The position numbers were made by a program, and so were the translations under genes. The notes beneath the pieces were generated by a model, which was given only the letters and a program-made list of their open reading frames with translations, did not search any database and was not told the origin of the DNA. This document shows, in pieces, positions 11,311 to 44,500 of a stretch of DNA of 64,000 nt; position 1 is the first letter of the stretch, and every line of letters starts with the position of its first letter. The DNA comes from Pelagomonas calceolata (Eukaryota; Sar; Pelagophyceae; Pelagomonadales; Pelagomonadaceae), in contig CAKKNE010000004.1 in assembly GCA_918797485.1 (NCBI GenBank), forward strand, positions 4,898,001 to 4,962,000, written 5' to 3'.

Positions 11311-14300
11311 CTACTTCGCCATCTGGTGCGCCACCAGAGCGTAGTAGTGCGCCTTCTTCGCCAGGAGCGCGTTGTGCGTGCCCTCCTCCAGGAGGCCACC
11401 CTTGCCGAAGACGCAGATCTTTGAAGCCGACCGGATCGTGCTGAGGCGGTGGGCTATCACCAGCGTCGTACATGAGGACGCGGCCACGAGCTCGTCGAGG
11501 GCGGCCTGCACTACTTTCTCAGAATTCGCGTCGAGCGCAGACGTGGCCTCGTCTAGTATCAACAAACGTGGTTTTCTCACAATTGCGCGGGCAATCGCGA
11601 TTCGTTGCTTCTGACCACCAGAGAGTTGTATACCGCGACTACCAACCTCGGTGTCAAAACCGTCCGGGAAGCCACTGATGAAGTCGTATGCATTCGCGAG
11701 CCGCGCCGCGCGCTCGCAGTCGCTTCGCGTTGCGCCCTCGCGACCGTACGCTATGTTTTCGAATATACTGCCAGTGAATAGCACAGGCTCCTGACTCACG
11801 AGCCCGATACTTGCGCGCAGAGCAGATACGTCCCAACTTCGCACATCGGTGCCATCCACAGAAATACGGCCGCCGTCGACGTCGTAGTAGCGCAGTATTA
11901 GTTGAACCGCCGTCGATTTACCGCTGCCGCTTTCCCCCACGAGCGCGCAAACTTCACCCGCTGCGATGGAAAATGTGAGCCTGTGTGGAAATCAACCAAT
12001 GAGTTAGGTTATCCTGAGCATAATTGCGAGAGACCATCGTCAACCTCCACGCCATCGAGCCAGCGCAGTCATGTGAACAACATCGCGTCGATGGCGTGGA
12101 ATCTCCACGCCATCGAGCAGACGCAGTCACAGGGACAATTGTCGCGTCGATGGCGGGGTACCATGAATTTGATTTCTACACGGACGTGAGCCGCTCATAG
12201 ACCGGGCGGTCGGCCCGCGTCGGGTAGGCGAAGGCGACGTCCTCAAAAGAAACCGTCGCCGCGGCGCCACCCTTGCCCCCGTCGTAACCGGACGGCGCGA
12301 GCGCGTCGATGGGCGATTTGAGGTGGACGATGTCCCACGCTTTCTTGGCTGCCGTCATGGCCTGTAGAAGCGACCGATGAGTCGCGGCGCCGTGGACTTC
12401 CAAACACCGAGCTACTAACCTCGGCCTTGTCGATGGAATCACCAGCCACCGCTCCGATTCCAAACGCCATGAATATAATTACGAGTAGGACCGTCATCAA
12501 GTCGGAAAAGGAGACCCAGCCCTTGCGGAAGAAAATACCGCCGACGTAGTACTGGAAGGCTGCGCCTAACAGAATGGTCGCCGCCTGTGTGCAACGGCGG
12601 TGAGAAAAGACTATCCTCACAAACTAGATCGACGACGCCGTGAAATTTGATTTGTGCACGGGTTGCTACCGCGACACCGGCGCCCAGGCCTCCCGCGAGG
12701 CCCTTTCGAATGGCCTGTCGTTCCGGCAACTCCAAAAAGTCGTCGAACTTTCGCGAGACGGCCGCCTCAATTCCGTAAGCTCGCACTGTTCTCATGTGTA
12801 AAACTGCTTCGGTCGCGATGCCACCGGCCCTGACCAACGACTCCTGGGCAGCTTCCGCGACTCGAGCCACATAAGAACCGGTCACCGCAATAGGTGCGAC
12901 AATAAGAGGGATTATACCCAGCGTGACGAGCGTCAGCCGCCACGACGCGTCGAACGAGATGCCGAGGCCTGTGCGGAAACCAGCCAGTGAGTTGGGTGCA
13001 TCGAGAAGGCGGCGCGTCGATGGCGCGAGAAGCTCCACTGCATTGATTTTATGCACTGACAGAGACCGCCCACAACGATAACGACCATTGCAACGGATAG
13101 GGCGATGCGTTGCCCGACGAGGGCGCGTACGGCTTGCGTGTCTTGGGCGAGTCGCGACGCTAGAGCTCCGGCGGCTCGCTCGGGCGCATCGTGCCCTGTG
13201 TGACAACCGCGTGACAAAAGGCTACTGATCCTCTCCGTCTGGCTTCGCGTTGATGGTGACCGCATCGGCGCGGCCGGGCTAAGTCAATACGAAGAGGGAA
13301 AATTGGACGCCGATTGCGCGCAGGAGATCGGCTGGCGGACCATGGCCTCAAAGGACTTGGTCCGAACATCCCTAACAACGTGCTCGGCTGCACGACTCAA
13401 GCCGTAGGACTTCCAGAGCTCGCCGATCGCGGCACATCCAGCCATCGCCACGAACATCAAGGCCCAGAACCGGGCCTCGCGGCGCATATGGCTCGTCGAG
13501 TGGTTGAAGAACGCCACGAGAAACTCAGCCATCAAAAAGCCCAGCAGCGGTTGCGTCGCGCCGCCGATGGCCGAGCCCACGACGCCCAAGGCGACGAAGG
13601 GCCGCTCGTCGCGCGCCGTCCGCCAGAGCCAGCTCACGACGCGAGATGCCGTCGCCTTGTCCACAGGCGCCGGCGCCTCGACGTCGTCGGCTTTCGTCGA
13701 CCCGGCGTCCGTGTCCGTGACGGCCTCGGCGAGGACGACGTCGTCCTCGGCCACGGGCGCGACGCTCGCGACGCTCGTGCCGCCGTCGTCGGACGACGAC
13801 ACCTGCGCCTCGACGAGCGCCTTGTACGCGCCGCCCTTGGCCATGAGCTCGTCATGCGTGCCGCGCTCGGCCACGGCGCCCTCGTTGAGGACACATATCT
13901 GGTCCGCGCGGCGGATCGTGCTGAGGCGGTGGGCTATCACAAGCGTCGTCCGCGCCTTCGAGGACGTGATGCTGTCGAGCGCCTCCTGGACGACGCGCTC
14001 GGACTTGGCGTCTAGGGCCGAGGTCGCCTCGTCGAGGACCAAGATTTCGGGGTCGCGAACCAACGCCCGCGCAATTGCGACGCGCTGGCGCTGGCCGCCG
14101 CTCAGCTTTACGCCGCAGTCGCCGACCTCGGTGTCAAAACCGTCCGGAAAGCCGCTGATGAAGTCGTAGGCGTTCGCGAGCCGCGCCGCACGCGCGCACT
14201 CGTCGCGCGTCGCGCCACTGCGGCCGAACGCGATGTTCTCAAAGATAGTTCCAGTGAATAGCACAGGCTCCTGCGCGACCAGCCCCATCTTCGACCGGAG

Positions 14301-23575: not shown

Positions 23576-25649
23576 CTACTTGCGCCCGCCGATGGCGTCC
23601 AGCGCCCGCGCGACGGAGGGGTGGGAGGCGTCTTCATAGAGCACGAGCCGCGGCTGGAGGTGTTGCCTCCCGCACGTCCGCACCGCCTCGTCCCACGTGA
23701 CGGCGGCCCGCATTTCCGGCGGCCCGTCGGACGCAGCGTTTGCATACTTGCTCTTGGACCCGCGGCTCGGCCGCGCGCCGCCGGACAGGTGCGGCAGGTC
23801 GTTGAAAAAGAGGAACGCGTCGCTCGTCTGCCGCTTGACGTAGGCTACGTAGTGCTGAAGCCGGTGGCAGTAGCAGACGAGCGCGTAGAGGGCGATGGGC
23901 GCGTCGGGCTGCGGTGTGAAGGCGCGTGCGAGCGCCTCGATCCGAGCCGCGTCGCGCGTCGGCGGCCAGGCGAGGTCGAGGGCGATGATGGACGCCCCGG
24001 CCCGAACGACCGGCGGCGGTGTCACCGTGGCGGCGCCCGTGGACCGTCCCCGCCGCGGCCGTGCCGGCGCACCGGGCCGCGGCGTCTCGGGCGCGGCGGC
24101 GAGCGGCGTCGCCAGGGCGTGCACCAATAATGCCTGGACCCGCGCCGTGTCGATGCCGTCGCCCCAGGGCACGGGCTGGATGCGGTACAAATCGGAGAGG
24201 CAGCGCGCTTGCGACGGGACATTCGGGTGGTCCAGCGCCCGCTGCACGGCCGAGAGCGCGTCGCTCGTGTCGCCGAAGCCGTGGCGGTCGCCCTCGGGCG
24301 CGAAGGCCTCGGCCAGCCGCGCCGGCGAGACGCTGTCCGCCTGGTCGAGGTCGGGCACCGTGTCCACCGAGGCCCCGATTCTAGCCTTCTTCGGCGGCGG
24401 CGGCGCGTGCGACGCGAGCGTCTGGCGGTACTCGCGCCACGTGTCCACGAGGGCCTCGATCTTCGGCGCGCCGGGCGTGTCCCATTCACTGGTCTCGAGC
24501 GCGCCCGCCTCCAGGGCCGCCTCGAAGCACGTGTGCCACGCACGCGAGTGCCACAATACTTGAAACGCGCACGAGAGCCAGCAGGACTTGGCGCGGGGGT
24601 TGGCGAAGGGCGCGTGCACGTAAGACCGCGACGGCTGGATGGAGCTGCCCGTCGGCGCCGCAGGGGTTTTTGGCACCGGGGGCACGCTCGGCGCCGGCGC
24701 CGGCGACGCCGCGATTTGCGCGCGCCGCGCGCGCGCCGCCAGCGCCTCCAAAAATAGGCCCGCGCGCGCAGCGTCGAAGCCGCAGCGCGGGCCCGAGAGC
24801 TCGCGCGCAACGGCCGCGCGGGCAGCGTCGTCGGCCGCGGCCTCGCAGCGCTGGAGCAGCGCCGCGGACACGCGCACGACGCCGGCCCGCGGCTGCTCGC
24901 CGTCCTGGTAGAGCTGGCGCCGCCCGTCGTCCGTCGCGTCGAGGCGGCAGAAGCCCGCCCGCGCGAGCTCCTCCTCGGTCCCGTCGGCGCGCTTGACGGC
25001 GACGACCTGTGTGGAAATCAGAATTTACGGCGCGTTCGCGTCGACCTCCACGCCATCGACGACGCACCCGCCACACTGGTTGATTTCCACACAGGCCACG
25101 ACGTGGACCCACCCTCCCCGCGGCGTCGCCGCGCCGCCCGGCGCCACCGCGCCGTCGCCCTCCCTTAAGTCCGTGAGGGGTGCGGATCTCAAATCCCGGC
25201 CCGACAGCACGGGCCACGCGCCGAAGCGCCCGCCGTAGACGAGGCGGTACGTCCGGCGCCCCGCGCGCTCCCGCTCGCGCGCCGCCTCGAGCGCCGCGTC
25301 ATCCTCTGCGGCTCGCCGCCGCGTGTCCTCGCCCACGGCGCCGATCCTGCCCCGGAGGCCGTTGATCCGCCGCGACTTGACGAACTGGACGACCGCCGCC
25401 TCCGTCGAGAAGTAGTCCCGGCCCTCGAGCGCGCCCTTGCGGAGCGACGTGTTCGCGCCCGGCCGGAAGTACGAGTAGGGGTGGAGGCCGGAGCCCTGCT
25501 TCCAGGTCCAGCCGACCTGCTTTAATCTCGCCCACATGATGTTGAAGGGCAGCTCGTGCCTGTGTGAGGTGCGCCTCGGGCGCGTCGCTTCGAAGACAGG
25601 GGACGCCGGAAACGCGCAACTCGACGAACTCGCCGCTCGGGCCCAGCAT
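23576..25649 (-). CDS. Ubiquitin-specific protease (USP/UCH-type deubiquitinase)
   Basis: Exons 25649-25618, 25559-25103, 25006-23576, joined in frame to 639 aa. Start ATG 25649 (MLGPSGEFVEL). The N-terminal part carries a stretch GWTWKQGSGLHPYSYFRPG followed by GRDYFSTE, a module of unknown role that I recall in many stramenopile proteins. The protease core has a Cys box, NPRAKSCWLSCAFQVLWHS (first Cys aligns with the nucleophile of NxGNTCYMN), and a His box, CHRLQHYVAYVKR...FLFFND, aligning with GHYxAYxR...WYxFDD. The insert between them is Pro/Ala-rich and probably disordered. Expected to remove ubiquitin from unknown substrates. More 5' exons cannot be excluded because exon 1 is short. 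Confidence 0.8.
25007..25102 (-). mobile_element. Best-preserved introner of the window: 88-bp element plus 8-bp target copy in the USP gene
   Basis: On the plus strand the element reads CTGTGTGGAAATCA (25007) to TGATTTCCACACAG (25094): a perfect 14-bp terminal inverted repeat. It is flanked by GCGACGAC (24999-25006) and GCCACGAC (25095-25102), 7 of 8 identical. In gene direction the intron starts GT at the first base of the upstream copy (25102) and ends CAG at the element end (25007). Excision rebuilds GGWVHVVAVKRADG without gain or loss. The centre carries ACGCCATCGACG, the shared core. Confidence 0.93.
25560..25617 (-). mobile_element. First intron of the USP gene (introner-like, GC-AG)
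   Basis: 58 bases, GCGCGTTT|CCGGCGTCC at the 5' end and CTCACACAG at the 3' end. The block CCGGCGTCC right after the first eight bases recurs in many introners of the window. The join gives FVEL+HELPFNIMWARLKQ. Confidence 0.75.
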
Positions 25650-41500: not shown

Positions 41501-44500
41501 ATTGAAGGAAACCACGCTGAGTCAGACGTCCTTTTGGTGCACGTGGATCGTAACTAAAGTTTCGATCTTCTTGCGGTTGACCTTCGTGCCCAGGTCCTGC
41601 AGGCACCACGACGACAGCTCCAGCAACAAGTTATTTTGGCGCGCGTTACACTCCTTCATGCCCGACTTCTTTCTTTTGCACTCCTCGAGCGCCGTCTGCG
41701 TGTCGGCCGTCCACATGAACTGGATGCCCAACAGAGCGATTTGCGCTTTGCTGTCGTCGACGAAGCGTCTTAACCCAGGAATGTCGACGCCCGTGGCCGC
41801 GCAGTACTCGCCCGCGGTCGCGCATAAACTTTTTACTGTTAACTGCATGTAATGTAATAAGGTCGTGAGCCAGTCCTCGATGTTGCCCGACGCCGGCACG
41901 GGCTTGATGAAGGGGAACTCCTCGTGGCCGACGCCGCCGGAGCCGTGGATCGTGCGGATGATGGCCTGCGCGGAGCATCGCGGTTCGGTCCGAATTCACT
42001 CAAAATCACAAAATAAACCACCCACGTCATCGTGCGATGGACACGAGTCGTATCAGTGAAGTGAAGGCGCCTCTACACGACGGGACGCCGCGAGCAGACC
42101 TTGTCCTTTTTGTCGTGGTCGACCTTCTCCAAGGCGTCGAAGACGGTCTCGTAGTGGGCGTTCATCGTCGTCGGGTCGCTGCCCTGCGACAGGATCTGGA
42201 GCAGCTTCGAGTTGGAGCAGAAGTAGAACCGCGGGAACTTGCTCCGTTTTTGCTCGAGGTAGCCCTCGAGGGCCTTGGAGCACTTTTCTAGTTCGCCGTA
42301 CATCTCGGGCAGCTTCGCCTTGAGCATCTCGTTCTGGCAGCAGGGGACGACGAGCGACGTCGACTGCGACACTTGCCTGCGCGGAGCATCACGATTGGCC
42401 TCAAATCCGAAAAAGAGACCACCCACACCATGCTACGAGTCCCAGCGACAACGTGAAGGCACCGTAGAAGACGCCGAGTCCGCGCATGATCTTCGTCCAG
42501 TCCTTGTCCACTTTACTAAATTTTTTGGCCTCCATCGGGAGCCTGTGTGGACATCAAAGTTCAACTTGGGCTTCAAGTCGGGGTCTCTCTCCCTTGAAGT
42601 GAGGTGCTGCTCGCTCCAGTCGGTCGAGTGTGTCTCTCGGAGATCGTGTCCGAGTTTGGGCCTCTCCGAGGACCGCGGCGCCGAGATCGCGAGACGCGAA
42701 TAATTTCCACACAGTGGCAGGCTGCTTGGCGATGTCGCCGCCCGTGAAGACCGATTCGAGGGAGCACCACATGAGCTGGACCTTGACCCACTGCTCGAGC
42801 GTGTCCGCGGCGTCGTTCAAATTAGCTAACAGCTCCGCGGCCTCCTCGCGGAACGGCGCGACGTGGCGCATGGTGAGGAAGGTCTGCATCTGCATGATGC
42901 TTTCTTCCAGTTCTTCGGTCAGGATGCCCGTGCCTTGTAAAGTAGGTATAGGTCTAGATTTCCAGTCCTGCGTGGGAACGACGCCGTCACGTCTCACGAG
43001 GCGCGTGGGCGCCCTGGTGATCATGAAGACCACGTCAAGTTCAAGTTCAATGAAGACGCTGAGTCAGTACCTTGAACGTGAACTCGCGGACCTCCCAGAT
43101 GCCGTTAATTTCCTTTATATCTTGTTCTATTTTTAATTGTTTATCGGCGCCGTCCGTGATCTCCAGCACCTCATCCGCCACGTTCTCCAATTTGAGGGAA
43201 ATGATGAATTCTAATGTAAAATCCGCGCTCTCCTGGTCGAAGTCGTTCTTGACCAAAGCTCGGAGCTCGTCCCAGTGCCGCACCATCACGCTGGGTTTGG
43301 CGAGTTCCTGGAGCAAGGGCAGCACGATCTGGAAGTCCTCGATGCGCTTATTTAAATTTTTATACGCGTCAAAAGCTCTAAGTCGACCGGGCATCTTCTT
43401 GCACCGCAAGGCAAAGTTGTCCATCGCCGCCGTCATGTCCTCCATGCCCGCGACGATGGCGGCAAATTGCAGCAGGTTCCACTCGTTCATGTTCTCCTTG
43501 ACGTCCGTGTAGAGCGAAAACCTGTGCGTGATATATCGCGTCCCGTCGTGGGGAGGCGCCTCCACGCCATCGAGGCGACTCGTGTCCATCTCACAGTGAA
43601 GTGGGTGGTCTCTTTTTCGATTTTGAGGCCGTTCGGACCGCGTCGATATATCGAGTCGCGACCTCGTCTTCCAGAGACTCAAATTCGACAAAGAGACCAC
43701 TCACGGCATCGTGAGATCGTATCAATGAAGTGAAGGCGCCTCTACACGTCAAAACGCCGAGATCAGACAGCTGGTCGAACAGCTTTATGTCCTTTTCCGT
43801 CTGCGCGAGCTCCGGGTATTCGCTAAATGGCAAAGCGAAGAGCTCCTCGCCGTTGTGGGCCATCTCGTACTTGCGCACGCACTGGGCCAGGTGGTCCTTG
43901 GCGAAGCGCAACCGATCGAGCGCCACCTCCGGGTCGACGCCCGGGACGCCCGGCCCCGCGTTGATCCAGTTGTCCCTGAGTTTGTCGACCTCCTTCCTTA
44001 GGACATTCTTGCTGACTTTCAGGTTCTTCTTCTGGACGTGCTGCTTGTTGCTCATCTCCTCGGCCCTGTGTGGGATCATGCAATCACGAAACTGCCGCGG
44101 CTCGCTCACGAGACCCGTAGACTCTCTCACGGCCCCGTCGAGGGCGTCGCGGCGGTGCGGCATCGCGTCGACGCCATTTTCACAAAGTTGAAGTTCGGAA
44201 AAGGCTGGAAACAGACGCTGAGTCAGCACCTTACGGAAGCGGTCGCGACCATCTTCCGCCAGCCGCTCTCGAGCACCGTCCGCTTGTCGACTTCCGACTT
44301 GTCCATGAAGCCGGACGGTAAATTGCGCTCGAGCATGGCGTACATCTCCTCGATGGGCCGCATCTCCATGCTGATGCCTGCGTGTGACACGTATCGAGTC
44401 AAATTCGACGAAGAAAGCACCCACGTCATCGTGAGGAAGTGAAGGCACCGCCACACGTCAAGACGCCGCGAGCGGACCCGACTCGCGCTCGCGGATCGTC

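Follow-up and report, generated by a model that had tools for sequence, protein, structure and literature searches.

The origin of new introns is an old question, and introners that are DNA transposons are already known as a way of making them, into which the family described here fits. The introners of Aureococcus anophagefferens, as described by Huff, Zilberman and Roy in 2016, reportedly possess terminal inverted repeats (TIRs), duplicate their target and borrow one splice site from it. TIRs, a target duplication and the combination of one carried with one borrowed site are also found in the family from Pelagomonas calceolata, a likeness of general design rather than of aligned sequences. 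A difference from the Aureococcus introners is that most of the sampled P. calceolata copies have been shortened to 60-200 bp through internal deletions.

Further described systems are compared here on the basis of the available portions of the papers cited by PMC number. Gozashti et al. (2022) sorted introners into classes by their TIRs and target-site duplications, with a method that allows insertions in opposite orientation; in some of their families the 3' splice site is part of the element and the 5' site comes from the duplication, and GC donors reach up to 50% in some families (PMC9860276). The present family shares with them the carried 3' site, the 5' site from the duplication and the occurrence of GC donors. 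The two-sided donor rule, the orientation-neutral design and the missing U1 complementarity reported below are not stated in the available portions of that paper. Neither the two-sided rule nor the missing U1 complementarity, for which no search by name was made, turned up in the available portions of PMC9860276, PMC9481584, PMC7789003, PMC12768974, PMC11782384, PMC10368747 and PMC3878927. The introner elements of Amoebophrya also have inverted repeats at the intron ends that could form a hairpin, as those of P. calceolata could, but their direct repeats measure 3-5 nt and their splice motifs are largely non-canonical, in contrast to 8 bp and GT/GC-AG here (PMC7789003). In the published genome of P. 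calceolata RCC100, a study that also used RNA-seq of this strain, the nuclear part totals 32.4 Mb in six contigs, next to a plastid contig of 90 kb and a mitochondrial one of 39 kb; it has 16,667 genes with 0.45 introns per gene, and intron lengths peak near 210 bp, which the authors called the characteristic length of Aureococcus introners (PMC9481584). Since the full-length element of 203 bp plus 8 bp of target gives an intron of 211 nt, full-length copies probably explain this peak in P. calceolata.

The window, i.e., the stretch of 64,000 nucleotides on contig 4 that was analyzed, contains at 25007..25094 an 88-bp element in canonical (+) orientation, located in a gene on the minus strand. 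With a probability of about 0.92, judged from sequence, the family to which it belongs is a nonautonomous cut-and-paste DNA transposon that inserts into exons and is usable at once, in either orientation, as a spliceosomal-type intron. The perfect 14-bp TIR and the 7/8 target-site duplication described in an earlier note on this DNA were recovered. The TIR at 25007..25020 (+) provides the 3' splice module, reading TGATTTCCACACAG on the gene strand, and its counterpart at 25081..25094 (-) lies on the 5' side of the intron. A repeat-finding tool reported 15 bp (25006-25020 / 25081-25095), because the two bases that flank the element pair as well. The 8-bp target copies read GCGACGAC (24999-25006) and GCCACGAC (25095-25102) on the plus strand and agree at 7 of 8 positions. 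On the gene strand, the 5' splice site would be the GT at 25102-25101 within the upstream copy (25095..25102, GTCGTGGC), and the downstream copy (24999..25006, GTCGTCGC) would be exonic. The predicted intron, 25007..25102 on the minus strand, is 96 nt long, lies in phase 0, reads GTCGTGGC...CCACACAG, i.e., GT...CAG, and would introduce an in-frame stop if retained. The "complete transposon anatomy" of the earlier note is borne out by the TIRs and the target duplication but is too strong a term, as the copy is an internally deleted derivative of an element of ~203 bp. Its supposed youth also needs qualification: because its TIR is one base off the usual family sequence, at position 15, and its substitutions amount to 3.4% relative to a 203-bp family reference assembled by eye, the copy is fairly young but not brand new. 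An Rfam scan of the window returned no family at the gathering score.

The host gene comprises an upstream coding part at 25103..25537 on the minus strand (145 codons from a likely ATG at 25537) and a downstream part at 23576..25006 (476 codons plus stop). Unspliced, its frame runs into a TAA within the element. Removal of 25007-25102 yields ...GGW VHV VAV KRADG... in a 795-codon stop-to-stop frame (621 codons from the likely ATG), and the claim that removal restores the codons thus holds, with WVHV joined to VAVKRADG in one open frame and related proteins continuous there. Database proteins are designated here by P numbers and fetched loci by L numbers. P0001 (98% identical) and P0002 (82% identical, from a contig of at most 60 kb) cross the junction with no added residues, and P0005 (an Aureococcus gene model) and P0007 are likewise continuous. 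The comparison with orthologues for empty sites, proposed in the earlier note, gave uninterrupted relatives (P0001, P0002, P0005, P0007) at the protein level. In DNA, the empty form would be a single GTCGTSGC (or GTTCCTGC) free of the element. P0001 and P0011, the latter a relative of a second host gene treated below, could be empty alleles if they derive from DNA, or spliced messages if they derive from transcripts; P0005, an annotated gene model, and P0016, an MMETSP transcript, were not counted as evidence for empty sites. The label USP that had been attached to the window gene found no support in Pfam, where its protein matched no family at an E value of ≤1; a Cys and a His motif of the kind found in such proteases can be made out by eye only. 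A search for relatives of the gene in viral contigs gave one stretch that matched the pattern and none that was confirmed.

The search of the genome for the TIR, also proposed in the earlier note, covered 32,445,274 bases (32.4 Mb) in 8 contigs. An exact TIR 13-mer was found 1,721 times (878 + 843) compared with a single match of the reversed control pattern, and the window element is therefore far beyond chance. Many similar introns at unrelated sites are the hallmark of introners, and here 1,721 TIR ends were found in the genome and 82 distinct TIR pairs in the sample. The target duplication is perfect over 8 bp in 36 of the 82 pairs and has one difference in 23, and no pair shows a perfect duplication of 4-7, 9 or 10 bp; a duplication of fixed length combined with TIRs is what characterizes DNA-transposon introners. 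From the share of exact ends in the sampled elements (113/164) and the 1,721 exact TIRs, the family can be guessed very roughly at ~1,200 copies, or about one-sixth of the roughly 7,500 introns. This guess extrapolates from a sample that was not random and whose members were collected by similarity to the window copy or by an exact TIR on contig 1, both TIRs being required. No exact match to the 21-base right end of the element was present in viral contigs. The window itself holds a second introner of the family at 11981..12183, which is 203 bp long, has a 7/8 target duplication and was assigned minus as its coding strand, and a third, older-looking member at 42543..42714 (172 bp, target duplication 4/8). 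The latter forms, with L074:4669-4848, a third subfamily (CTGTGTGGACATCAAAG...) with a different inner right-end sequence; this subfamily might stand nearer to the origin of the ends. A large duplicated region is common to the termini of contigs 1 and 5 (L013, L023 and L024 on contig 5; stretches near 258, 293 and 317 kb on contig 1), and because both copies seem to carry the same introners at the places seen, it offers no presence/absence difference.

The ends of the element were then compared with respect to the strand of the host gene, which was called from codon usage in 150-base flanks after removal of the element and one target copy. The codon model assigned 114 of 117 pieces correctly, these having been cut from its own training frames. 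From 82 pairs, 81 had sufficient flanks, 80 of these had unique flanks, 64 had a clear coding strand (the other 16 were left out of the donor count) and 59 had at most two target mismatches. All 59 begin with GT (38) or GC (21) in the target duplication on the coding strand, as do the five callable pairs with more mismatches, one of which (L018:352-576) is a false pairing that has an end in common with a counted copy. At the unused mirror-image end, GY occurs in 27 of 59 copies; taken singly, position 2 is Y in 50 and position 1 is G in 31, against a background for GY of 17.6% per position. The same asymmetry is seen in the element ends, the acceptor AG being intact in 59/59 at the used end and its mirror-image CT altered in 7/59 at the unused end (Fisher p 0.013). 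Genome-wide, 1,074 of the 1,721 exact TIR ends (62%) have GY at the donor spot and 171 one base further out; the share is lower than the 73% predicted from the sample, a gap that may stem from copies that lie outside genes or whose duplications have decayed.

With respect to the gene, 29 copies lie in sense and 28 in antisense, with 2 unclear. On account of the asymmetry of the used end and of this 29:28 ratio, the family appears to make introns for either strand and is neutral to orientation. The view of the earlier note that introners are nonautonomous DNA transposons that carry one splice site and borrow the other agrees with the sequence constraint observed here (GY 59/59, AG 59/59). The difference in GY between used (59/59) and unused (27/59) ends points to two forces. 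One is a preference of the insertion machinery for a palindrome near GYNNNNRC, as the target sites indicate; the other is a demand at the used end, most simply understood as selection for splicing. In this compact genome, every copy pairs an end constrained by splicing with a mirror-image end free of that constraint, so that the preference of the transposase and the selection on splicing can be told apart in one copy after another. From an mRNA alone, the cut cannot be assigned to one base of the 8-bp duplication, but the requirement for GY and AG favors the first base, where the earlier note had also placed the 5' splice site.

The following sequence of events would account for this pattern. 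A transposase that favors palindromes near G-Y-N4-R-C would cut a target of 8 bp. Read outward, each TIR gives ...TTGATTTCCACACAG and would thereby provide a pyrimidine stretch and a CAG acceptor, possibly with a branch point, at each end. Target preference and TIR ends together would supply a donor and an acceptor on either strand, whichever strand the gene is on. Coding-strand ends lacking GY, which are absent from the sample, have presumably been purged by selection, and later internal deletions would shorten the intron in place.

The mobilizer may be a transposase of the hAT type, for which we see slightly less than even odds. The family has in common with hAT transposons such as Hermes, whose target preference is an 8-bp duplication of the form nTnnnnAn, the duplication length and the pyrimidine and purine at positions 2 and 7 (PMC10368747, PMC3878927; available portions). 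Moreover, the genome contains a hAT transposon, apparently full, at L060:4550-8200 (G000:C4:4499549-4503199), with a perfect 14-bp TIR (CAGGGCAGCAGAAG), a perfect 8-bp duplication (TTGCTCGC) and an open 714-codon frame with a match to the hAT dimerization domain. A TIR in common with a hAT transposase gene is lacking: this transposon, the sole hAT found, has the TIR CAGGGCAGCAGAAG, which starts with CAGGGCAGC, whereas the family TIR starts with CTGTGTGG, and its protein is present only once in the genome. The published rule further calls for T at position 2, but among the 50 of 59 unused ends with Y there, only 21 have T. Genome searches by transposase family found no transposase with the family TIR (CTGTGTGGAAATC ends). 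Those for MULE and IS1595/Merlin transposases found nothing, with controls detected, and those for KDZ and P-element transposases also found nothing, but there the controls were silent too. An autonomous copy of the family may exist in the genome. Among 79 ends with variant inner bases, compared by eye against each other as listed, no facing pair lies 1-10 kb apart, the nearest being separated by 11.4 kb. Near-exact TIR matches without a close partner number 6 of 192 in the fetched DNA, overlapping loci being counted twice; at L069:650, one of the six, the far-off ends that face it belong to other elements.

A sharp question raised by the family is how donors without U1 complementarity are chosen so exactly when the U1 genes look canonical. 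Two candidate U1 snRNA genes were found (L081:1501-1672 and L082:1501-1678, both in G000:C1), just under the Rfam gathering score, with different bodies and the same canonical 5' end AUACUUACCUG. Positions +3 to +6 of the introner donors show no GURAGU bias, and the match to U1 is 3.37/9 compared with 3.35/9 at 1,000 other GY sites in the vicinity; in 57 of 59 introns, a competitor site matches better. The U1 duplex energies agree with this picture (-1.89 kcal/mol at introner donors, -1.95 at other sites, -14.0 for a canonical site), and in 55 of 59 introns another GY within the 108 nt examined pairs better with U1. Introner donors therefore have no complementarity to U1 beyond GT/GC, and the cut would fall exactly 8 nt outside the TIR.

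One tentative answer, which keeps the transposon model but competes with ordinary donor choice by consensus, is that the donor is guided by position: the TIRs would form a 15-bp RNA stem that brings the end of the exon, 8 nt upstream, beside the acceptor, where a bare GY would be enough. The background-level U1 match and energy, the absent GURAGU bias and the canonical 5' ends of the two U1 genes would fit such guidance, and folding predictions do pair the TIRs, on either strand of the reference element as well as in the window copy. We nevertheless regard it as doubtful, since pairing follows from TIRs regardless of any function, TIR positions changed on both arms amount to 1 in 885 (a change that preserves pairing), which leaves no power to detect covariation, and the ordinary introns of this genome may have equally weak donors. 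If position does guide the donor, the element could be seen as a strand-blind intron maker, with TIRs that serve as transposase sites in DNA and as a stem marking the donor in RNA, a GY 8 nt outside that needs no U1 pairing, and a palindromic target preference that makes about half of the ends usable; this combined picture is speculative, and we consider it rather unlikely.

It is very improbable that the element is an unspliced MITE that breaks genes in this strain, although some database proteins do read straight into it. At the window gene, these are P0003 and P0004, both of which begin with MISTQVVAVKRADG, the ISTQ in their start being the element end translated in the frame of the gene; at the L003 gene (PF04187), they are P0013-P0015. 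Against this stand the GY (59/59) and AG (59/59) that follow the coding strand, the stop or frameshift that 55 of 65 copies would cause on retention (phases 0/1/2 = 28/17/20 of the 65), and the location of copies in conserved enzymes whose conserved blocks are restored by removal. In cysteinyl-tRNA synthetase (L072), the junction reads DFA|LWK and both printed alignments with solved chains are gap-free there. In FGAM synthase (L074), it reads VLKEI|VETEGA and is gap-free in the alignment with the best chain, 9n9w_A; in a second alignment, a gap of 2 residues lies 4 residues beyond the junction. In the L003 gene, P0011, P0012, P0016, P0017, P0020 and P0021 are continuous through a sequence similar to FLP|EGG. 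When relatives are compared by lineage, at the level of proteins, those that are continuous are P0002 and P0007 for the window gene and P0012, P0017, P0020 and P0021 for the L003 gene. Least likely of all is a spread as RNA via reverse splicing, a route suggested for introner-like elements of fungi: the copies do occur as introns in genes, but 8-bp target duplications, TIRs and equal numbers in the two orientations are unexpected if a spliced RNA had been reverse-spliced. P0018 and P0019 (matched parts 92% and 91% identical) have a different insert in the L003 gene, after NYG, whose translation resembles the element family by eye in two frames and which is probably a separate gain in a related lineage.

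With the transposon reading retained, the L003 copy also gives a view of how such introns may change in length. The element there measures 84 bp in the reference, and P0015 corresponds to a read-through across this same copy, as does P0014 with one extra base and the exception of one residue. P0013 has the same insertion but reads VWKSKFTARSC-stop, as expected of an undeleted 203-bp form if this had the three-T run of the L003 copy. Since P0013 fits the undeleted form at the same site, the internal deletion in the reference copy probably came after the insertion. Among the alleles of L003:1494-1585 represented by P0013, P0014 and P0015, the element seems to vary in length, with a further difference of one base. 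The comparison suggests that introns shorten in place within natural populations.

Across the family, the large deletions are mostly individual to each copy, and length shows no correlation with divergence (rho -0.04; 73 of 76 copies). Microhomology at the deletion junctions averages 1.3 bases compared with 0.7 in random deletions. The breakpoints were counted by eye in 34 single-deletion junctions. On the right, 15 overlap positions 169-173, close to where the palindrome GTCGGGTGCACCCGAC (166-181) has its tip; on the left, 14 fall wholly within positions 68-79, which form the loop of a 12-bp stem, and another 2 overlap this loop. The internal deletions tend to end at the tips of hairpins (56-91 and 166-181 of the family reference), as if these had been cut or skipped.
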